Shown here: one piece after another, positions 5,769-62,217 of the stretch | Position numbering within the stretch: position 1 is the stretch's first letter | Layout: the number at the start of each line of letters is the position of its first letter | The notes under the pieces: model-generated | Seen by the model: only the letters and a program-made list of their open reading frames with translations | What the model was told of the DNA's origin: nothing | Databases searched by the model: none | Made by a program: the position numbers and the translations under genes | Assembly: GCF_018437235.1 (NCBI RefSeq) | Contig: NZ_JAAMFJ010000003.1 | Location: 1 to 64,000, forward strand | DNA from: Fructobacillus papyrifericola | Lineage (GTDB): Bacteria; Bacillota; Bacilli; Lactobacillales; Lactobacillaceae | Direction of reading: 5' to 3' | Length of the DNA stretch: 64,000 bases

Positions 5769-5801
5769 AAAGTCGCTTTGCTGAACCACAAGCGGCTTTT
5801 C
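5769..5801 (+). terminator. Terminator after the 72-aa gene
   Basis: AAAGTCGCTT and AAGCGGCTTT form a 10-bp stem with one G-T pair, followed by TTT. The stem carries one copy of the AAAGTCG word. Confidence 0.6.
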
Positions 5802-13207: not shown

Positions 13208-13303
13208 GATTGGTGAATGCGAAACCCGTACCGCACATTAACTGTTTCGTCGCTGGCCCACATTCCGTTTCCAGCGCACTTAACGCACGGGTTCCTACCC
13301 CAT
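13208..13303 (-). ncRNA. Tetrahydrofolate (THF) riboswitch
   Basis: The minus-strand leader contains, in order, the conserved blocks of the THF-I aptamer: GGGGTAGG, GCGTTAAGTG, GGAATGT, ACGAA, GCGGT and CGCATTCACC. It sits directly upstream of the folate transporter gene, as in other lactic acid bacteria. I judged it by eye against the known aptamer pattern; the boundaries are approximate. Confidence 0.82.
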
Positions 13304-13340
13304 ATTTAATATAGCGTTCGCTAGCAAAACGCCACTCCCT

Positions 13341-19915: not shown

Positions 19916-19949
19916 AAGGTCTCTCCTTTTAGTTACGAATATGTACGAA

Positions 19950-19967
19950 AGTCGGCTTTCGCCGACT
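19950..19967 (-). promoter_or_regulatory. Intercistronic hairpin between oppA and oppB
   Basis: AGTCGGC-GAAA-GCCGACT on the minus strand forms a perfect 7-bp stem with a GNRA-type tetraloop. Only TTTCGT follows, so it is probably a weak terminator or an mRNA 3' stabiliser that lets oppA be expressed above oppBCDF. Confidence 0.6.
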
Positions 19968-39217: not shown

Positions 39218-39249
39218 TTTTTATAATTGGAGCGGTCCAATTATAAAAA
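39218..39249. promoter_or_regulatory. 32-bp palindrome between gntR and xfp (candidate GntR operator)
   Basis: TTTTTATAATTGGA and its exact complement flank GCGG. It lies about 50 bases upstream of the xfp -35 and carries GGTCCAA, also found twice at the gntR promoter (40045-40076). It overlaps by five bases with the gntR terminator, so a role in termination is also possible. Confidence 0.5.
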
Positions 39250-39288
39250 GGACGACTTTTCCATTTTAATCTGAAAAAGTCGCCCTTC
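39245..39288 (-). terminator. gntR terminator, AAAGTCG-type stem
   Basis: Minus strand AAGGGCGACTTTTT and GAAAAGTCGTCCTTTTT form a stem with one G-T pair; each arm contains the AAAGTCG word. Confidence 0.75.
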
Positions 39289-39297
39289 TTGCTCTTT

Positions 39298-40026
39298 TTA
39301 TTCCGATGAAATCGACACAAAGGCGTTATAGCGAAGGTACTGATAATGCAGGCGCATGTTGGCGTATTCCAAGGGCGTGCCGTCGTCCATGAAGAAGATT
39401 CCTTCCATGATCCCAACCGGTTCCGTTTTCTTGAGCTTCAACAGCTGCTGCTCCTCTTCGTTTGACGGGGCCGCCATAATCGTCATGAAAGACCGGGTCA
39501 CCTTCTTTTGCTTTTCTTTTTCCACGTAGCCGTATATCGATTGCGTCACGTTTTCTTTTTTCAGACCGGGTAAAAGCGAAATCGGCACGTAACCGTACTC
39601 GATCATGAAGGGCACGCCGTCTAACTTCCTCAAGCGCTTAATCTCGTAGACAAAGTCCCCGTCGTTTAAGAAAAGGGCCGACTGCTGTTCGGGATTGGCC
39701 TGAATCACGCGAAAGTCAAGCAGCTCAATCGACGGCGCCTGCCCGTTAATCCGAAAGGAGTCCGAAACCCCCAAGTTCGATCCCTCGTGCTGAAAAATGG
39801 CCTGGTTTTTCAAGTAAAGCGGGTTCACAAAAGTCCCGGAACCACGCTTCTTAAAAATAATCCCCTGCTGGACTAAGACACTCAAGGCCCGTTTGATGGA
39901 TGAACGAGAAACCCCGTAGTCTTCTGCCATCGACCGTTCATCCGGCAGCTTCAAATCGGGGTAGGCCCCCTGGTAGATTTTTGATTTAATGTCGGCTTGC
40001 ACCGTTACGTATTTTGATTCTGTCAT
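39298..40026 (-). CDS. GntR-family regulator (HutC/UTRA type)
   Basis: 242 aa. N-terminal winged helix (LPDERSMAEDYGVSRSSIKRALSVLVQQG, about residues 27-55, with RGSGTFV), then a UTRA ligand-binding domain (about 95-235). Such regulators bind sugar phosphates or related ligands. Located directly upstream of phosphoketolase with the same orientation; shared GGTCCAA repeats suggest it controls that gene and itself. No good SD precedes the ATG. Confidence 0.88.
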   Translation of the reverse strand: MTESKYVTVQADIKSKIYQGAYPDLKLPDERSMAEDYGVSRSSIKRALSVLVQQGIIFKKRGSGTFVNPLYLKNQAIFQHEGSNLGVSDSFRINGQAPSIELLDFRVIQANPEQQSALFLNDGDFVYEIKRLRKLDGVPFMIEYGYVPISLLPGLKKENVTQSIYGYVEKEKQKKVTRSFMTIMAAPSNEEEQQLLKLKKTEPVGIMEGIFFMDDGTPLEYANMRLHYQYLRYNAFVSISSE

Positions 40027-46098: not shown

Positions 46099-46128
46099 AA
46101 AAAAGTCGGTGAAATACACCGACTTTTT
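46099..46128 (-). terminator. nhaC terminator, AAAGTCG-type stem
   Basis: AAAAAGTCGGTG-AAATA-CACCGACTTTTT. Both arms consist of the AAAGTCG word in inverted orientation. Confidence 0.9.
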
Positions 46129-46140
46129 GATGACAATTAT

Positions 46141-47511
46141 TTATTTTTGGTCGGCGTCTTCTTTTGCCTGTCGCAAACCAATTCCGGTCAAGGCTGACAA
46201 GAGTGAAAAGACTGGCGAAAAGAGGGCCAAGAAGGTGAAGGGAACGAAGGCCAAGACCGAGACGTGCAAGGTCTGGCTGGCAAAGGCCCCGGCAACACCC
46301 CAGGGAACCAAGTAATTGGCAATCGCTCCAGAATCTTCCATCGCCCGGGACAAGGCCAGTGGCGAAAGACCGAAACGCTTGTAGTCTTCTTTGAAGAGCT
46401 GGCCCGGCAACATCGTTGACAGGTACTGTTCGCCAACCAAGAAGTTCGTGGCAATTCCGGTAACCAAAGTGGCAAAGACCAAGGAACGTTGAGACTTTAG
46501 CTTGGAAACCAAGGGGTTCATCACCGCCCGCAAAATGCCTAAGTTGGAAAGCAGCCCACCCAGTCCAAGGGCCAACATGATCAACATGATAGTATCCATC
46601 ATCGCCACCATGCCGCCCCGGTTTAACAGTGCCATCAAAGTAGCGTTGTGCGAAGTCGTCTTGAACCCGTTAACCACCAGGTTCGACCAAGTCGTTAAGG
46701 AGTGGCCGGAGAAAAGGAAGTACAGGGAGGTCACGGAAACGTTGATTAAGAGGGAAGGAATGGCGGGGACTTTTTTCAAGGCCGTCACGAAGATTAAGGC
46801 AATCGGTACAATGGCCCACCAAGTTGGCTGAATCAAATTCGTTAAGCTAGCCCCTTCAGCGGCTAAGTTTCCGCTGTGCCCACCGGTCAATCCGAAGACA
46901 AAGGCCAGCAAAAGGCTGACCAAAAGGGCCGGGATGGTCGTCCACATCAAATTCTTCAAATGTGAAAAGAGGTCGACCTCGGCCACGGCCGCCGCCAAGT
47001 TGGTTGAATCGGACAAGGGCGAGCTCTTATCACCAAAGATGGCACCGGAAATGATAAAGCCGGCCACCATGGCTGGGTGAAAGCCAATCGTCGTTCCAAT
47101 GCCCATCAAGGCCACCCCGACGGTTGACATCGTTGTAAAGGCCGAGCCAATCATCATCCCCACCAAGGCACAGGTCAACAGCGCGGTTGGCAAGAACCAC
47201 TGCGGATTAATCAGCTTAAAGCCGACCCAGATCATGGTTGGGATGACCCCCGTTCCAATCCAGAGGGCAATCATCGCCCCAATCAAGAGGAACAAGAAAA
47301 GCGGCGCAATGCCCGCTTCAATCCCCTTAATCAATGCCGCCTGGGCATCTTTAAAGGAAACCCCGGTCAGGCGCATGCACATCACCACCCAGGCAATGGC
47401 CACAAGCAGCGGGGCAATGGGCGCCAGACCCAGGCCGATAATGCCGCCAGCCAAAATAAAGACGACCCCCAAAAGGAGAATCGTTGCAAAAGTTCGATTT
47501 AACGTTTTCAT
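46141..47511 (-). CDS. Na+/H+ antiporter, NhaC family
   Basis: 456 aa, about eleven to twelve hydrophobic segments. ISGAIFGDKSSPLSDSTNLAAA is the NhaC hallmark, and GVAGAFASQTLHVSVLAFVPF ends the transport domain. Exchanges Na+ (possibly with malate/lactate in relatives) for H+. Only a weak SD is visible, and it lies 42 bases after an MFS gene on the same strand with no terminator between, so it may be the second gene of a pair. Confidence 0.9.
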   Translation of the reverse strand: MKTLNRTFATILLLGVVFILAGGIIGLGLAPIAPLLVAIAWVVMCMRLTGVSFKDAQAALIKGIEAGIAPLFLFLLIGAMIALWIGTGVIPTMIWVGFKLINPQWFLPTALLTCALVGMMIGSAFTTMSTVGVALMGIGTTIGFHPAMVAGFIISGAIFGDKSSPLSDSTNLAAAVAEVDLFSHLKNLMWTTIPALLVSLLLAFVFGLTGGHSGNLAAEGASLTNLIQPTWWAIVPIALIFVTALKKVPAIPSLLINVSVTSLYFLFSGHSLTTWSNLVVNGFKTTSHNATLMALLNRGGMVAMMDTIMLIMLALGLGGLLSNLGILRAVMNPLVSKLKSQRSLVFATLVTGIATNFLVGEQYLSTMLPGQLFKEDYKRFGLSPLALSRAMEDSGAIANYLVPWGVAGAFASQTLHVSVLAFVPFTFLALFSPVFSLLSALTGIGLRQAKEDADQK

Positions 47512-52175: not shown

Positions 52176-54143
52176 ATGGCATTTTTAGAACTGAAAAACA
52201 TTCATAAGTCCTACTTCTTGGGCAGCCAAGAATTTCCGGTCTTAAAGGGAATCGACCTCGACTTTGATTTGGGCGACTTCGTTTCCATTCTCGGGGAATC
52301 CGGTGGTGGTAAGTCGACGTTGATGAACATCATCGGCGGCCTTGATCGCAACTTCGATGGTGAAGTGCTTGTTGATGGCAAGAAGCTCGACCACAAGCAG
52401 GAAAAAGCCCTGGATAAGTACCGTCGGGAAACGATTGGTTACATTTACCAGTCTTACAACCTGATTGCCCACCTGTCCGTCTTGGACAACGTCTTGGTTT
52501 CACTTGACATGACGACTTTGTCAAAGAAGGAACGAGAACAACGGGCCAAGGACCTCTTGACCAAGGTTGGCTTAGACGGCCAGATGAAAAAGTACCCGAA
52601 CCAGCTCTCTGGTGGCCAGAAACAGCGTGTCGCCATCGCCCGCGCCTTGGCTTCCGACCCCAAAGTCATCATCGCCGATGAACCGACCGGTGCCCTGGAT
52701 GCCCAAAACACCAAGGAAGTCCTCGCGCTCTTGAACGAAATCGCTTCCGAAGGTCGCCTGGTCATTACGGTTACCCACTCGCAGGCCGTTGCTGATGCTG
52801 GTACGCGAATCGTTCGCTTAGCCGATGGCCAAATTGAGTCAGACGACCGCATCAAGCCAGCCTATGAAAAGCAGGATAAGGAAATGATTCCTTCCCGTGC
52901 CCTGCCACGTCGTGCTTCCATCAAGACGGCCTTCAAGCACTTCCGCCATAACTTGGGTACCAACTCCCTGATTATCTTGGGAACCTCGATTGGCCTCTTT
53001 GCCGTCATCCTCTTCTCCGGATTGGGTAACGGGATTTCTGGCTACATGTCTAGCCAAATCACGAAGTTGGCCAACCCACAGGTCATGTCGGTTAGCCGCT
53101 ACGTCAAATCCGATGATGACGATTCCGCAACTGCATTCGGTTCTAGCACCGATACGCCAGCCTTCACAACGGCTCAGCTAAACCAAATTAAGAAACAAAA
53201 GCACGTTTCAAAGGTGGAAGCCTCTTACACAGCGGCAAACGTTAACGTTTCCTATAACAACCAAAACGTGAAGATGCGCTCCCTTTCCAACTGGAACGAC
53301 TCCTTCTCCAAGGACTCAATCAAGGCTGGTCACGCCCCTACTAAGGACGGCGAGATTCTGTTGGATCAGTCAGCAGTCGCTGAAAAGTTCAACAAGAACA
53401 ATTACAAGGACCTCATTGGTAAGCAGGTAACGCTGTCTTATCAGACACAAAATGCTCAGGGTGCTGCAGTCACTGTTAACATCACGGCCACTGTTTCCGG
53501 TATTGGTCACTCAGATGGCAAGGCTGCTCAAATTAATGCAATCAACACGCAAACCCTTCAAAAGGCCCTCCAGGCTGCTGGTGTTAGCGCTGATCCGACG
53601 GAAATCGATGTCAAGGTTGACGACTTGAACAATGTCGAAGAAACGGCCAAGGCCATCGATAAAATCAAGGATGGTTCAACCCGACTTTACAAGACATCAA
53701 CCATTCAAAGCTTGATTAGCCAAATTCAAACCTACGTCAACCTGGCCACGTCCATTCTTTCAACGATTGCCGGCATCTCCTTGATTGTTTCGGCACTGAT
53801 GATTATCGTGACCATGTTCATGTCCGTTGCCGCCCGTACCAAGGAAATTGGTATCCTGCGTGCCTTGGGTGAATCCAAGCGTGACATCCGCTGGCTCTTC
53901 ATCTCTGAATCATTGATTACCGGATTGCTTTCGGCAACCTTGGCAACCATCATTGCCTATCTGGCACAGGCCGGTATCAACGGCCTGCTCAAGGGCACAG
54001 CCGATTACGCCTTCGTTCAGATTACGTCAGGCAACATCATCAACGCCTTCGTCATCGCCCTGATCATTTCCCTCCTGGCTGCTTTGCTTCCCGCACGACG
54101 CGCCGCAAAGCTCAACCCAATTGACGCTCTGGCTGCGGAATAA
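52176..54143 (+). CDS. MacB-like ABC exporter, fused ATPase and permease
   Basis: 655 aa. An ABC domain (1-230) with Walker A GESGGGKST, signature LSGGQKQRVAIARALA and Walker B VIIADEPTGALD, then four membrane segments with a large extracellular MacB-PCD domain between TM1 (about 265-285) and TM2-4 (about 530-650, FtsX type; LRALGESKRDIRWLF and LPARRAAKLNPIDALAAE). Such exporters work mechanically on peptides or cell-envelope targets. No accessory protein or two-component system is adjacent. AAAGGA SD. Confidence 0.93.
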   Translation: MAFLELKNIHKSYFLGSQEFPVLKGIDLDFDLGDFVSILGESGGGKSTLMNIIGGLDRNFDGEVLVDGKKLDHKQEKALDKYRRETIGYIYQSYNLIAHLSVLDNVLVSLDMTTLSKKEREQRAKDLLTKVGLDGQMKKYPNQLSGGQKQRVAIARALASDPKVIIADEPTGALDAQNTKEVLALLNEIASEGRLVITVTHSQAVADAGTRIVRLADGQIESDDRIKPAYEKQDKEMIPSRALPRRASIKTAFKHFRHNLGTNSLIILGTSIGLFAVILFSGLGNGISGYMSSQITKLANPQVMSVSRYVKSDDDDSATAFGSSTDTPAFTTAQLNQIKKQKHVSKVEASYTAANVNVSYNNQNVKMRSLSNWNDSFSKDSIKAGHAPTKDGEILLDQSAVAEKFNKNNYKDLIGKQVTLSYQTQNAQGAAVTVNITATVSGIGHSDGKAAQINAINTQTLQKALQAAGVSADPTEIDVKVDDLNNVEETAKAIDKIKDGSTRLYKTSTIQSLISQIQTYVNLATSILSTIAGISLIVSALMIIVTMFMSVAARTKEIGILRALGESKRDIRWLFISESLITGLLSATLATIIAYLAQAGINGLLKGTADYAFVQITSGNIINAFVIALIISLLAALLPARRAAKLNPIDALAAE

Positions 54144-54162: not shown

Positions 54163-54202
54163 AAAAAGTCGTCACCGTTTCATCACCGGTGACGACTTTT
54201 TT
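54163..54202 (+). terminator. Terminator of MacB-like gene, AAAGTCG-type stem
   Basis: AAAAAGTCGTCACCG-(9 bases)-CGGTGACGACTTTTTT. The stem base is an inverted pair of the AAAGTCG word; could also serve the converging XRE gene. Confidence 0.92.
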
Positions 54203-54525: not shown

Positions 54526-54684
54526 TTCTCTCCTCCTATCATGGTACTTGTTTGATTCCATTTCCTAATCACTGTCTCGGCCCTATTATAACCAGGCATA
54601 CCCGCTTTGCAAAGAAAAAGCACGAACAAGCGTTCGTTTTATTCAAAACATTCATAAGTTTGAACAAAGCGACTTTTTCCGTAT

Positions 54685-54711
54685 AAAAAAAAGTCGACCG
54701 GTGGGTCGACT
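54685..54711 (-). terminator. Terminator of the 144-aa membrane gene
   Basis: Minus strand AGTCGACC-CACC-GGTCGACT then TTTTTTT. Carries one AAAGTCG word. Confidence 0.85.
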
Positions 54712-58041: not shown

Positions 58042-58152
58042 AGTCATCCCTTTTTCGTCTGACAACGTTTTTCTTCTCTCCCTATTTTACTAGAAAGTAC
58101 CGACTTTGACAGTAAAAATGGTCAAAGTCGTCGAAGGACGGACCGTCCGTCT

Positions 58153-58966: not shown

Positions 58967-58996
58967 AACCACCACCAGCCAGCGGTGGTTTTTTTT
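58967..58996 (+). terminator. rpiA terminator
   Basis: AACCACC and GGTGGTT around a 10-base loop, then TTTTTT. Confidence 0.78.
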
Positions 58997-59107
58997 GATC
59001 GAATTACCGCTACCAACGCCCTTTCCTCCTTGAAAATCACCCTCGAGAAGCCTATCATAAAGCTATATCCTTCTACTTTAGAAAGAAGAGGAATTGGGGT
59101 TTCAAGC

Positions 59108-60469
59108 ATGCATTCGACAACAACACAGTCGGCCTTAAACGACACGGCCCATCCTGAACGTTTGCACCAGCACATGGCGGTTCGCTGGGAAAAAGTCATC
59201 GAAAAGGAAGACCATCCTGCTCGAGAAGCGGCACTGCCAGTCCGAGCATCGATTGTTGGTCGTGTCGGCATTCAATTATTATCGACCGGAACCGGGGCCT
59301 GGCGCGTCCGCTCGGCCATGAACAAGGTGGCGCGCGCCCTAGAATTAACCATTTCGGCTGATATCGGTTTTACAGCCATCACCGTCACCTGCTTCGACGG
59401 GGCCGATTCCTTTACCGAGTCGCTTTCCTTAGCGGCGACCGGCGTGAACACACACAAAATGACCTTGATCGAAGACTTTGTCGAACAATTTGCCGTGAAG
59501 TACGCCGACCAAAAGCCACAAGTTGCTCACAAAGAACTGGATAAAATTCAAAAGCGCCCCGGTAACTACGGGCCCGTTCGCGCAGGCCTCGCAGCGGGTC
59601 TTGCCTGCTGCGGCTTTATCTTTTTACTCGGTGGTGGACCAGTCGAGATGCTCGGTTGTTTCATCGGTGCCTTTTTCGGACAATTCACGAGAAAACGTCT
59701 TGGACAAAAGCATTGGAACGCGGTTGCCACAACGGTAATTGGCGTTGCCGCGGCCTGCCTGGCCTATGTGCTGACTTTCTTCTTGTTGCGGTCACTCTTT
59801 CCACTGTCTTCTGCTCACGAAGCCGGCTACATCGGTGCCATGCTCTTCGTGATTCCAGGATTTCCCTTCATCACCTCCATCTTGGACTTGTCTAAAAACG
59901 ATATGCGTTCCGGTCTGGAACGATTGGCCTTTGCTCTGATGATCATCTTCTCAGCAACCCTTGTCGGCTGGCTCTTGGCCATGCTCTTTGGGCTGCGGCC
60001 GCAGAACTTTTTGCCACAGGGACTGAGTTTGTATCCACTGATTGCCTGCCGCCTCTTGGCCTCCTTTGCCGGGGTCTTCGGCTTCTCCTTGATGTTTAAC
60101 TCCAAGCTCAAAATGGCCGCGACGGCCGGTTTAATCGGAGCGGTGGCTAACACCACCCGACTCGAATTGGTTGACCTGTCCCAGCTACCACCCGCAGCCG
60201 CTGCCTTCATCGGCGCCTTGATCGCTGGTCTGGCCGCTTCTTACATCAACCGTTACACCGTCTTCCCACGCATTTCCTTGACGGTGCCGGCCATCGTCAT
60301 CATGGTGCCCGGCCTTTACATCTACCGCGGTATTTACAACCTTGGCCTGAACGCCATCGGGGTTGGTGCCACCTGGTTGATCAAGGCAGCCCTAATCATG
60401 ATTTTCCTACCATTTGGCCTCTACGTGGCCCGCTTCATCATGGATAAGGATTGGCGCAAGGTGGATTAA
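59108..60469 (+). CDS. Threonine/serine exporter, ThrE family (YjjP-YjjB fused)
   Basis: 453 aa. A soluble N-terminal domain (1-165) is followed by five-TM YjjP-like and YjjB-like halves (ten segments in all); FVIPGFPFITSILDL lies in the first half and VPAIVIMVPGLYIYRGIYN in the second. The fused form exports Thr/Ser; homologous split pairs transport other dicarboxylates such as succinate. I start at MHSTTTQ after GGGG; the open frame extends 41 codons upstream without support. Confidence 0.88.
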   Translation: MHSTTTQSALNDTAHPERLHQHMAVRWEKVIEKEDHPAREAALPVRASIVGRVGIQLLSTGTGAWRVRSAMNKVARALELTISADIGFTAITVTCFDGADSFTESLSLAATGVNTHKMTLIEDFVEQFAVKYADQKPQVAHKELDKIQKRPGNYGPVRAGLAAGLACCGFIFLLGGGPVEMLGCFIGAFFGQFTRKRLGQKHWNAVATTVIGVAAACLAYVLTFFLLRSLFPLSSAHEAGYIGAMLFVIPGFPFITSILDLSKNDMRSGLERLAFALMIIFSATLVGWLLAMLFGLRPQNFLPQGLSLYPLIACRLLASFAGVFGFSLMFNSKLKMAATAGLIGAVANTTRLELVDLSQLPPAAAAFIGALIAGLAASYINRYTVFPRISLTVPAIVIMVPGLYIYRGIYNLGLNAIGVGATWLIKAALIMIFLPFGLYVARFIMDKDWRKVD

Positions 60470-60481
60470 GTATTCCAAAAC

Positions 60482-60523
60482 AAAAGTCGTTCGAACGGAA
60501 TTAACCGTTCGAACGACTTTTTT
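60482..60523. terminator. ThrE gene terminator, AAAGTCG-type stem
   Basis: AAAAGTCGTTCGAACGG-AATTAA-CCGTTCGAACGACTTTT, a perfect 17-bp stem with an inverted AAAGTCG pair at its base. Confidence 0.93.
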
Positions 60524-60591: not shown

Positions 60592-62217
60592 TTAGTACTT
60601 AGGTTCCCACTTCAAAGCTTCGATAGCAGCCTTGACGTCAGAAATCTTTTCCTTCGTGATGCCTTGGTCAACGGCTGATTGTGCAACCGCGATGGCAACG
60701 TCTTCAGAGAACTTCGTCAACTGTGAAACTGGAGGCAAAACAGCAGCACCTGGCTTTGATGCATCAACCAAACCACCCAATGAGTGAGCAGCAGCTGAGA
60801 TCATTTCGTCGTTCAAGACCGTAGCCGTTGAAGCGATCGTTCCGAGTCCAAGACCTGGGTAAACCAACGCGTTGTTAGCTTGTCCGATGTTGTACGTTAC
60901 ACCCTTGTATTCGATTGGGTCAACAGGGATACCGTTGGCAACCAATGCCTTACCATCAGTCCATTCAAGCAAGTCCTTAGCCGTTGCTTCAACCAACTTC
61001 GTTGGGTTAGACAATGGGAAGATGATTGGGCGTTCTACGTGAGAAGCCATTTCTTGAACGATTTCCTTAGTGAAGGCACCAGGAACAGTTGAAGTACCAA
61101 CCAAGATCGTTGGGTGGATTTCCTTAACAACTGACATCAAGTCAGTCAATTGGTCGTTGTTAGCAAACTCTGAACGCTTGCGAGCAAATGGTGCTTGTTC
61201 TGGCGTCAAGTCGTCCATGTCGTCGAAGAGCAAACCTTGCTTGTCAACCAAGTAGATGTGTGACTTGGCTTCTTCTTCTGACAAACCTTCTTGCAACATT
61301 TCGTCGAAGATACGAGCAGCGATACCACATCCGGCTGATCCGGCACCAAATGACAAGTATGTCTGGTCTGACAACTTTTCACCAGTGATGTTCATGGCAC
61401 CCAATGCAGCGGCCAACGTGATGATTCCAGTTCCTTGGATGTCATCGTTGAACGTCGTGATGTCGTTCTTGTACTTGTTCAAGATCTTAGCACCGTTTTG
61501 ACGGGCAAAGTCTTCCCAGTGCAAGTACAAGTTAGGGAATGTCTTTTCAGCAGCTTGTACGAAGTCGTCAACAAACTTGTCGTACTTTTCGCCGCGAACA
61601 CGTTCGTGACGGTTACCCAAGTAGTTAGGGTTTTCCAACAATTCCTTGTTGTTCGTTCCGTTGTCCAAGACAACTGGCAAAACGTCGGCTGGGTTAACAC
61701 CTGCGGCTGCAGTATAAACCATCAACTTACCAACGGCGATGTCAACACCGTTGACACCCCAGTCACCAATACCCAAGATACCTTCGGCATCCGTTACAAC
61801 GATCAACTTGATGTCGCGACCGTTAGCGGCGTTCTTCAAGCTCGTTTCGAAGTCTTCGTCGTTGTCGATTGAGAAGTAAACGGCGTTTTGTGGGTCAACG
61901 AACAAATCTGAGTAGTTTTCGATCGTGTCAGCGATAACTGGATCGTAAACGATTGGCATAAATTCAACCACGTGTTGTGAGAACATGTAGTAGAACAATG
62001 TGTGGTTCGTGTTAAAGATTTCCATCAAGAACAAGCGCTTTTCCAAGTCAGAAGGCTTTGATTGGAATTGTGCGTAAGTTTGTGCTTCTTGTTCTTCCAG
62101 AGTTTGCACGCGTGGAGGCAAGAGCCCGGCTACGCCGAGTTCCTTACGTTCTTCCATCGTGAACCCTGTCCCCTTGTTCAAGAAGGGGTTGTTCAAAATC
62201 TCGATTGGTGTCGTCAT
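60592..62217 (-). CDS. mleA: Malolactic enzyme (or NAD-malic enzyme)
   Basis: Converts L-malate to L-lactate and CO2. 541 aa, the length of the Oenococcus/Leuconostoc malolactic enzyme. Malic-enzyme motifs: [32 protein letters not shown], and dinucleotide-binding [11 protein letters not shown]. Malic and malolactic enzymes are hard to tell apart by sequence; length, family and the divergent LysR gene favour malolactic. High codon bias, SD AAAGGAG. The AAAGTCG word is absent. Confidence 0.9.

Follow-up and report, generated by a model that had tools for sequence, protein, structure and literature searches.

The choice of DNA by a sequence word at the uptake step has been described in two families, the Neisseriaceae and the Pasteurellaceae, named as the only ones known in a 2025 paper (PMC12616744). 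Paired uptake words act as terminators in Neisseria and in the Pasteurellaceae, as reported in a survey of 343 prokaryotes, which gives 1,471 copies of the uptake words for H. influenzae (PMC1852404). The known uptake dialects share a constant part (PMC3630211), and the neisserial DUS is read by the minor pilin ComP (background in PMC6370729).

Here we describe two short words, AAAGTCG and AAATCAG, in Fructobacillus, on the basis of a 64-kb stretch of DNA (the window), the 1.30-Mb genome to which it belongs (G000, contig C3), and twelve further genomes of the genus, 13 in all. Eleven of the twelve bear presumptive names, assigned by agreement of their word counts with those of named loci. AAAGTCG resembles the DUS of the Neisseriaceae in its copy number, on the order of 1,000 or higher in a genome, and in its inverted pairs in putative terminators (PMC1852404, PMC3630211); the two words together resemble the DUS dialects, which track the species tree and have a constant part in common (PMC3630211). 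The Pasteurellaceae USS offers a parallel in its A-rich 5' end, which gives A/T-tailed hairpins when paired, and in its density of ~1 per kb (PMC1852404); AAAGTCG occurs in G000 at about 1 per kb, a frequency similar to that of the known uptake words. The USS comes in two types (PMC12616744), and two words likewise occur in Fructobacillus. However, the USS cores, AAGTGCGGT and ACAAGCGGT, differ from the Fructobacillus words, and no position-specific AT-rich blocks such as those of the USS were found within 25 bases past the word, where a background drawn from the same flank could hide a broad AT bias. Unlike the DUS, which has 10 to 13 bases, the Fructobacillus word has a core of 7 bases and a weakly preferred flank; its sequence is unrelated to the DUS, its host is Gram-positive, and its role in uptake is putative. 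To our knowledge, DNA uptake by Gram-positive bacteria is regarded as not sequence-specific. DNA binding by a monoderm competence pilus has been explained in one study through positively charged residues of the minor pilins (PMC12040237).

Abundance of AAAGTCG in the window and its genome

AAAGTCG is over-represented in the window (first row of Table 1), where the expectation was derived from dinucleotide shuffles (sd 3.4), none of which held more than 20 copies. Throughout G000, the word occurs 1,288 times (655 + 633), against 374 (188 + 186) for the reversed word. It was the top 7-mer of a 464-kb sample of this genome, with 447 copies where a trinucleotide model predicted 119.5, and 370 of the 447 (83%) lay within predicted genes. 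Synonymous-codon shuffling within each of 379 genes, predicted with a purpose-made simple codon-score method, gave 89.3 coding copies (sd 8.5), and a repeat estimate gave 93; this shuffle preserves codons, not codon neighbors, and leaves a residual spread (the sd of z was 2.4 over all words). The 86 kb of noncoding DNA in the sample held 76 copies versus 19.7 expected, and the densities in genes and in noncoding DNA were almost equal (0.98 and 0.88 per kb, respectively). The strongest coding form, CAAAGTCG, was found 191 times, compared with 36 after codon shuffling. Measured against codon-shuffled coding DNA, the final G is the least strict position of AAAGTCG, and a fuller form of the word can be written TGn(A/C)AAAGTC(G). 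In all five genomes of this dialect (dialect 1), the most over-represented coding 7-mers were words containing AAAGTC. Other coding words of the CAAAG type in G000 (CAAAGAG, CTTTGCC, CTTTGGC, and others) ran 2- to 3-fold above codon shuffling, CAAAGAG at 148 versus 47.7.

AAAGTCG is not a palindrome. With GC skew as a guide to the replication strand, and with loci having a GC skew of ≤0.02 left out, 195 copies in G000 fell on the G-rich strand and 252 on the other, a mild bias. A large excess of one short word, present on both strands and over the whole genome, is characteristic of uptake sequences of the DUS/USS class, and AAAGTCG displays it.

The density of AAAGTCG followed GC content in G000 (Spearman 0.67, 24 pieces), and no significant trend was found in five other genomes (5 to 6 pieces each). 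Two stretches of low GC content held the word at chance level: L052 (G000:C1:180001-200000; 39.8% GC), with 2 words versus 3.3 expected from local composition and with frames that we read as glycosyltransferase-like and surface-protein-like genes, and the 20-kb L137 of F. parabroussonetiae (G009:C12:60001-80000; 35.3% GC), with 2 versus 2.6. At 42.8% GC, L061 had 6 words versus 3.3 by composition, and L120 of F. tropaeoli, at 38% GC, still had 17 versus 5.8. Regular spacing between words had weak support: a slight tendency toward evenness appeared in two closely related genomes of the second dialect (47 and 37 of 1,000 simulations) and was not seen in the other four genomes tested.

Inverted pairs and terminator-like hairpins

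The preliminary description of the window had listed seven stems, four of them with AAAGTCG on one arm and its complement on the other. In these four, the first hairpins of Table 1, both words are present at the positions given. A stem thought to hold a single copy (54685-54711) is in fact the right half of a double-word site, with a second, inverted copy at 54670-54676. The stem at 5769-5801 does contain the one copy assigned to it; being weak and imperfect, without a proper T-run, and placed between divergent frames (called at ≥120 aa, with shorter genes between them outside that scope), it is probably not a terminator. At 19950-19967, where AGTCGG had been noted, the word proved to be present in full (19948-19954), in a hairpin that lacks the T-tail of a terminator. 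Elsewhere in the window, a THF riboswitch lies on the minus strand at 13209-13304 (Rfam RF01831, 73.8 bits).

Table 1. Positions of AAAGTCG features in the window, with the loci of split competence genes
Feature	Position	Strand	Stem and word positions	Setting
AAAGTCG copies	1-64000	both	74 versus 12.2 expected	
Terminator-like hairpin, inverted pair	39245-39288	-	CGACTTT 39253-39259, AAAGTCG 39276-39282 (arm order reversed, CGACTTT first); - strand fold of -25.8 kcal/mol, ending in TTTTTAT	Downstream of GntR/UTRA gene 39298-40026 (-)
Terminator-like hairpin, word pair	46099-46128	-	46102-46108, 46120-46126; -16.3 kcal/mol	Downstream of NhaC-like gene 46141-47511 (-)
Terminator-like hairpin, word pair	54163-54202	+	54165-54171, 54193-54199; -24.3 kcal/mol, T6 tail	Downstream of MacB-like ABC transporter gene 52176-54143 (+)
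Terminator-like hairpin, word pair	60482-60523	both	60483-60489, 60514-60520; -26.7/-27.7 kcal/mol	ThrE-like gene 58985-60469 (+) converging with malolactic enzyme gene 60592-62217 (-)
Double-word site	54670-54711	-	CGACTTT 54670-54676, AAAGTCG 54690-54696; - strand stem, then T8	
Inverted pair CGACTTT ... AAAGTCG, absent from the preliminary description	58101-58130			Noncoding DNA
Hairpin with one full word	19948-19967		19948-19954; no T-tail	Between OppA-like and OppB-like genes
Single word in weak, imperfect stem	5769-5801	+	-11.3 kcal/mol	Between divergent open frames
Split competence genes	L157, L071, L146, L153, G009:C10:73530-74142			Other loci

The site 3' of the malolactic enzyme gene has word pairs at the same place in G000 and in F. 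parabroussonetiae, with different inner stems; by eye, the hairpins at this site in F. papyriferae, F. broussonetiae, F. durionis, and CRL 2054 are without the word. The malolactic enzyme of G000 is 98% identical to those of F. parabroussonetiae and F. papyriferae.

Over the whole of G000, inverted AAAGTCG pairs with 2 to 30 bases between them numbered 32, versus 9.3 expected from word frequency, and the reversed-word control gave none. The same spacing in the other four dialect-1 genomes yielded 31 versus 6.8, 22 versus 5.0, 22 versus 3.6, and 18 versus 3.3, with expectations for relatives based on rounded genome sizes. The remaining eight genomes of the genus have 1 to 8 pairs each, with ratios of 2.4 to 10.3, so the ratio alone is no marker of dialect. 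Within 50 bases, pairs in the reverse order (CGACTTT first) were also in excess, at 13 versus about 4.7, with 9 of them inside genes; the usual order accounted for 15 pairs, and another 6 had both words on the same strand.

The preliminary description had proposed that the frequency of paired AAAGTCG in all predicted terminators of the genome be compared with that in shuffled stems of equal composition. In the 464-kb sample, a purpose-made scan, with pairing and T-tails read from the sequence, found 221 noncoding terminator-like hairpins, of which 15 hold AAAGTCG, 9 of them as pairs; eleven composition-matched words (AAA-permutations) were held by a mean of 2.3 of the same hairpins (maximum, 6) and paired in 0.45 (maximum, 2), placing AAAGTCG above the control. 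The share of 15 in 221 stands against about 55% for the DUS, a value obtained by another method. AAAGTCG thus forms inverted pairs in predicted terminators, as uptake sequences do, and terminators account for the smaller part of its copies. The second word behaves differently in this respect: none of the 45, 46, and 37 terminator-like hairpins in the samples of its three genomes holds an AAATCAG pair, intergenic stems with the word number 3 in F. tropaeoli and 2 in EFB-N1, and its inverted pairs reach merely 1.2 to 1.8 times expectation. AAATCAG does not show the inverted-pair terminators of uptake sequences.

A second word and its flank across the genus

AAATCAG is the abundant word of a second group (dialect 2). 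Its whole-genome copies number 2,384 in F. tropaeoli, 2,183 in EFB-N1, and 1,628 in G001, and 253 to 558 in the other ten genomes of the genus. In coding DNA, 166 copies were found versus 29.8 after codon shuffling, 158 versus 28.7, and 90 versus 26.6, respectively, and its density in its clade exceeds that of AAAGTCG in dialect 1. The F. tropaeoli and EFB-N1 genomes have 95% identical DNA and are therefore not independent cases. Copies were split 103:109, 94:115, and 50:56 between the G-rich and the opposite strand in the three genomes. AAAGTCG shows no clear excess in dialect-2 coding DNA (24 versus 15.1, 19 versus 17.8, and 13 versus 10.3, in the same order; 1.1- to 1.6-fold), and AAATCAG is slightly raised in coding DNA of AAAGTCG genomes (75 versus 59 in G000 and 27 versus 19 in F. 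fructosus). Neither word is strong in F. ficulneus or ESL0958, where AAATCAG in the latter stands at 39 versus 25.4, and a weak excess of AAAGTCG (1.6- to 1.8-fold) is present in F. papyriferae, F. pseudoficulneus, and F. broussonetiae.

Both words are preceded by the same flank: relative to a codon-shuffled background, position -4 is enriched in T and position -3 in G. In coding DNA, TGnnAAAGTCG was found 78 times versus 8.8 in G000 and 50 times versus 5.6 in the four other dialect-1 genomes (8.9-fold each), and AAAGTCG copies lacking this flank were in 3.6-fold excess; TGnnAAATCAG was found 45 times versus 5.3 in F. tropaeoli and G001 (8.4-fold), the remaining AAATCAG copies being in 4.2-fold excess. 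Bare TGnnAAA was 1.1- to 1.4-fold in excess in all 14 samples, word-bearing or not. In dialect 2, G is enriched at -4 alongside T, and noncoding support for the flank is weak (z of 2.5 and 1.6). By analogy with the known dialects, we read the shared flank as suggesting a single recognition system whose 3' half varies. A scan for a third dialect, with TGnnAAA followed by any 3 to 4 bases, found nothing comparable in F. ficulneus, F. pseudoficulneus, F. papyriferae, ESL0958, or Convivina and a weak AAAGTC signal in F. broussonetiae (18 versus 4.3).

A tree built from ComGA, ComGB, and ComGC places the words in two separate clades: the dialect-1 genomes, together with the weak F. papyriferae, are split from the rest with a support of 0.999, and dialect 2 forms a single clade with a support of 1.000. 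Dialect and clade thus coincide in the genomes of the genus, and related species differ in dialect while keeping a constant part, as is the case for uptake sequences.

Conservation was expressed as the words kept among all those in aligned DNA, beside a control fraction. Over 40.8 kb of aligned sample DNA, G000 and F. parabroussonetiae share 80.7% identity, which points to G000 as a species of its own within that group; 26 of 50 AAAGTCG copies are kept between them (control, 0.33). From G000, 15 of 45 are kept in F. fructosus (0.28) and 17 of 55 in F. durionis (0.23); from F. durionis, 21 of 32 are kept in CRL 2054 (0.48). AAATCAG was retained in 143 of 160 cases between F. tropaeoli and EFB-N1 (0.77) and in 20 of 22 between G001 and F. 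tropaeoli (0.42). Conservation only equaled the control or fell below it from G000 to F. papyriferae (10/50; 0.26), from G000 to F. broussonetiae (3/32; 0.25), and from F. parabroussonetiae to F. papyriferae (1/15; 0.25). The words are therefore conserved beyond the control in most, not all, sister comparisons. Toward species without the word, 2 of 44 AAAGTCG copies of G000 are kept in F. tropaeoli (0.14) and 2 of 93 AAATCAG copies of F. tropaeoli in F. ficulneus (0.20).

Outside the genus, 34 stretches of 17 to 20 kb from 33 genera and ten loci of other groups had neither word among the top-ranking ones listed; 40 stretches had been fetched, six being too short and dropped, and stretches of 20 kb reveal dense words only. 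For 87 genomes from other genera, the comparison of whole-genome counts of the two words was by eye only. Top words with a z of >8 were present in 5 of the 34 stretches (G016, G020, G032, G037, and G046). In 20-kb stretches from three other genera of the family, CACCGCC (L167), CATCCTC (L179), and CTCCACC (L193) were very over-represented, and these excesses are likely local repeats.

Competence genes and the weighing of explanations

Our coverage of competence genes took in the comG operon, comEA, comEC, and dprA. In G000, comGA to comGG form one operon of open frames, in which comGA, comGB, and comGC were assigned by Pfam and comGD to comGG by operon position, the start of GE being uncertain; comEA (Pfam) adjoins comEC, dprA is also present, and all three have open frames. 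Within the genes covered, the window's genome thus has the predicted competence machinery that an uptake sequence calls for. The ComEC, ComGA, and DprA families were found in all 13 genomes of the genus, including those without the word, so their presence fails to separate the word-bearers. Some frames are broken: ComEC and DprA each lie in two frames in F. parabroussonetiae, ComEC/ComEA is split into several in G001, a stop falls within ComGA of F. tropaeoli, and the ComEC frame of F. ficulneus is interrupted, which may reflect real, recent decay or assembly errors. In F. fructosus, of dialect 1, the comG and comEC frames seem to be open. The ComP receptor family (PF16732) had no match in the 13 genomes, nor in the control genomes. 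ComGD to ComGG are only 40 to 43% identical between G000 and F. parabroussonetiae (L150 2928-6526 and relatives), compared with 98% for the malolactic enzyme, a fast divergence of ComG pilins.

The main rival explanation takes AAAGTCG and AAATCAG for Chi-like recombination signals that are read by a RexAB/AddAB nuclease and also mark self DNA. Chi sites are short and occur often, with a preference for core DNA; the words resemble those of AddAB/RexAB in being short and abundant, and each of the 13 genomes encodes a RexB-like protein (open frame of 1,063 to 1,288 aa), below the curated cut-off in all. However, Chi is usually strand-polar and is not built into terminators, where inverted pairs would be unexpected of it, whereas the bias of the words is small in every genome counted (195:252, 103:109, 94:115, and 50:56). 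The strong replication-orientation bias of Chi or KOPS is lacking in both words and present in GGGGATG, which has 76 to 100% of its copies on the G-rich strand in each of the 13 genus samples, as well as in Convivina, whichever words are present; owing to this polarity, GGGGATG is a better candidate for Chi or KOPS in the genus than AAAGTCG or AAATCAG. The word also differs between sister clades, and F. ficulneus and ESL0958 have no strong word despite their RexB-like proteins. We judge a Chi-like role of the two words unlikely, and KOPS is ruled out for them by the small strand bias. Strand counts of GGGGATG and CATCCCC are, for example, 82:24, 46:5, 29:1, and 14:0, and coding copies exceed codon shuffling 1.7- to 6-fold.

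Iterated words of unknown role exist elsewhere, such as the cyanobacterial HIP1, and AAAGTCG might be a frequent genomic word serving another function, as the site of a nucleoid protein or in methylation or repair, with no link to uptake. The 2- to 3-fold coding excess of CAAAG-type words in G000 fits such a view, but AAAGTCG is not a palindrome, and the terminator pairs, the two words with a shared flank, the chance-level low-GC stretches, and the open competence genes together make up the pattern of uptake; we consider this alternative fairly unlikely. That AAAGTCG is merely a preferred stem of A/T-ended hairpins is a view in keeping with AAAGCAG, which equals it in intergenic AAA-based stems (12 versus 11). 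Yet 370 of 447 copies lie inside predicted genes, and AAATCAG, equally abundant in its clade, occurs in no paired hairpin; AAAGCAG itself is just 1.6-fold enriched in genes (120 versus 74), and what singles out AAAGTCG is its genome-wide excess, not stem use alone. This origin is highly improbable, and as a full explanation it is refuted by the coding excess (370 versus 89.3). An excess due to codon usage or composition is scarcely conceivable: in the reading frames concerned, AAA, GTC, GAC, and TTT are unremarkable codons, but synonymous shuffling yields 89 or 93 copies instead of 370 and the noncoding density is nearly equal. Codon usage is accordingly refuted by both shuffling runs on the G000 sample, and trinucleotide composition is ruled out by the 447 copies versus 119.5. 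A repeat element (REP/MITE) was also rejected, because the flanks show no conservation beyond weak preferences.

An uptake word with two dialects is the most economical account of these data, with a Chi-like role as its chief rival, weakened by strand bias, terminator pairs, and GGGGATG. The proposal of the preliminary description, that independent terminators sharing one word follow the uptake-sequence pattern, is supported by paired use above that of matched words, by the codon-independent excess, and by a second TG-flanked word; it is narrowed by the minority of copies that terminators hold, by two of the seven stems, which are unconvincing, and by the near absence of AAATCAG from terminators. 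AAAGTCG is most likely the uptake, or self-recognition, word of a naturally transformable bacterium of the Fructobacillus group. On balance, we also favor the broader view that Fructobacillus has a putative sequence-specific uptake system, the first in a Gram-positive organism, independent of those in Neisseriaceae and Pasteurellaceae, and comprising two or more dialects (TGnnAAAGTCG and TGnnAAATCAG). What we infer from this pattern is competence as such, binding, biased uptake, the identity of the receptor, and drive. The matches listed from the literature searched, mostly outside subscription journals, included neither uptake experiments on Fructobacillus nor reports of uptake words in Fructobacillus or lactic acid bacteria; among the matches listed for AAAGTCG as a term, all seem unrelated, judging from the title and the start of the abstract.

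In competent cells, double-stranded DNA that bears the word would be bound better than DNA without it by a receptor belonging to the Com machinery, which may be ComEA or a minor pilin located at the ComG pilus tip. DNA of the cell's own kind would then be imported preferentially via ComEC, and DprA and RecA would assist its recombination. Alleles bearing the word would be taken up more often, and words would build up where they are tolerated, at synonymous sites, on both strands, and in intergenic DNA; words paired in opposite directions could fold into hairpins and be retained as terminators. An altered receptor specificity would give rise to a new dialect, for which the F. tropaeoli clade, with AAATCAG behind the same TGnn flank, is the candidate case.

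If this account is true, Fructobacillus would represent a third independent case, in a different envelope, and would indicate that an outer membrane is no prerequisite for the evolution of self-DNA recognition. Related species with two dialects would then serve as a harmless model for comparing the receptor, the dialect switch, and molecular drive, and the dialects would impede the exchange of genes among sister clades. On the practical side, the finding suggests a route to making transforming DNA acceptable to fructophilic bacteria.
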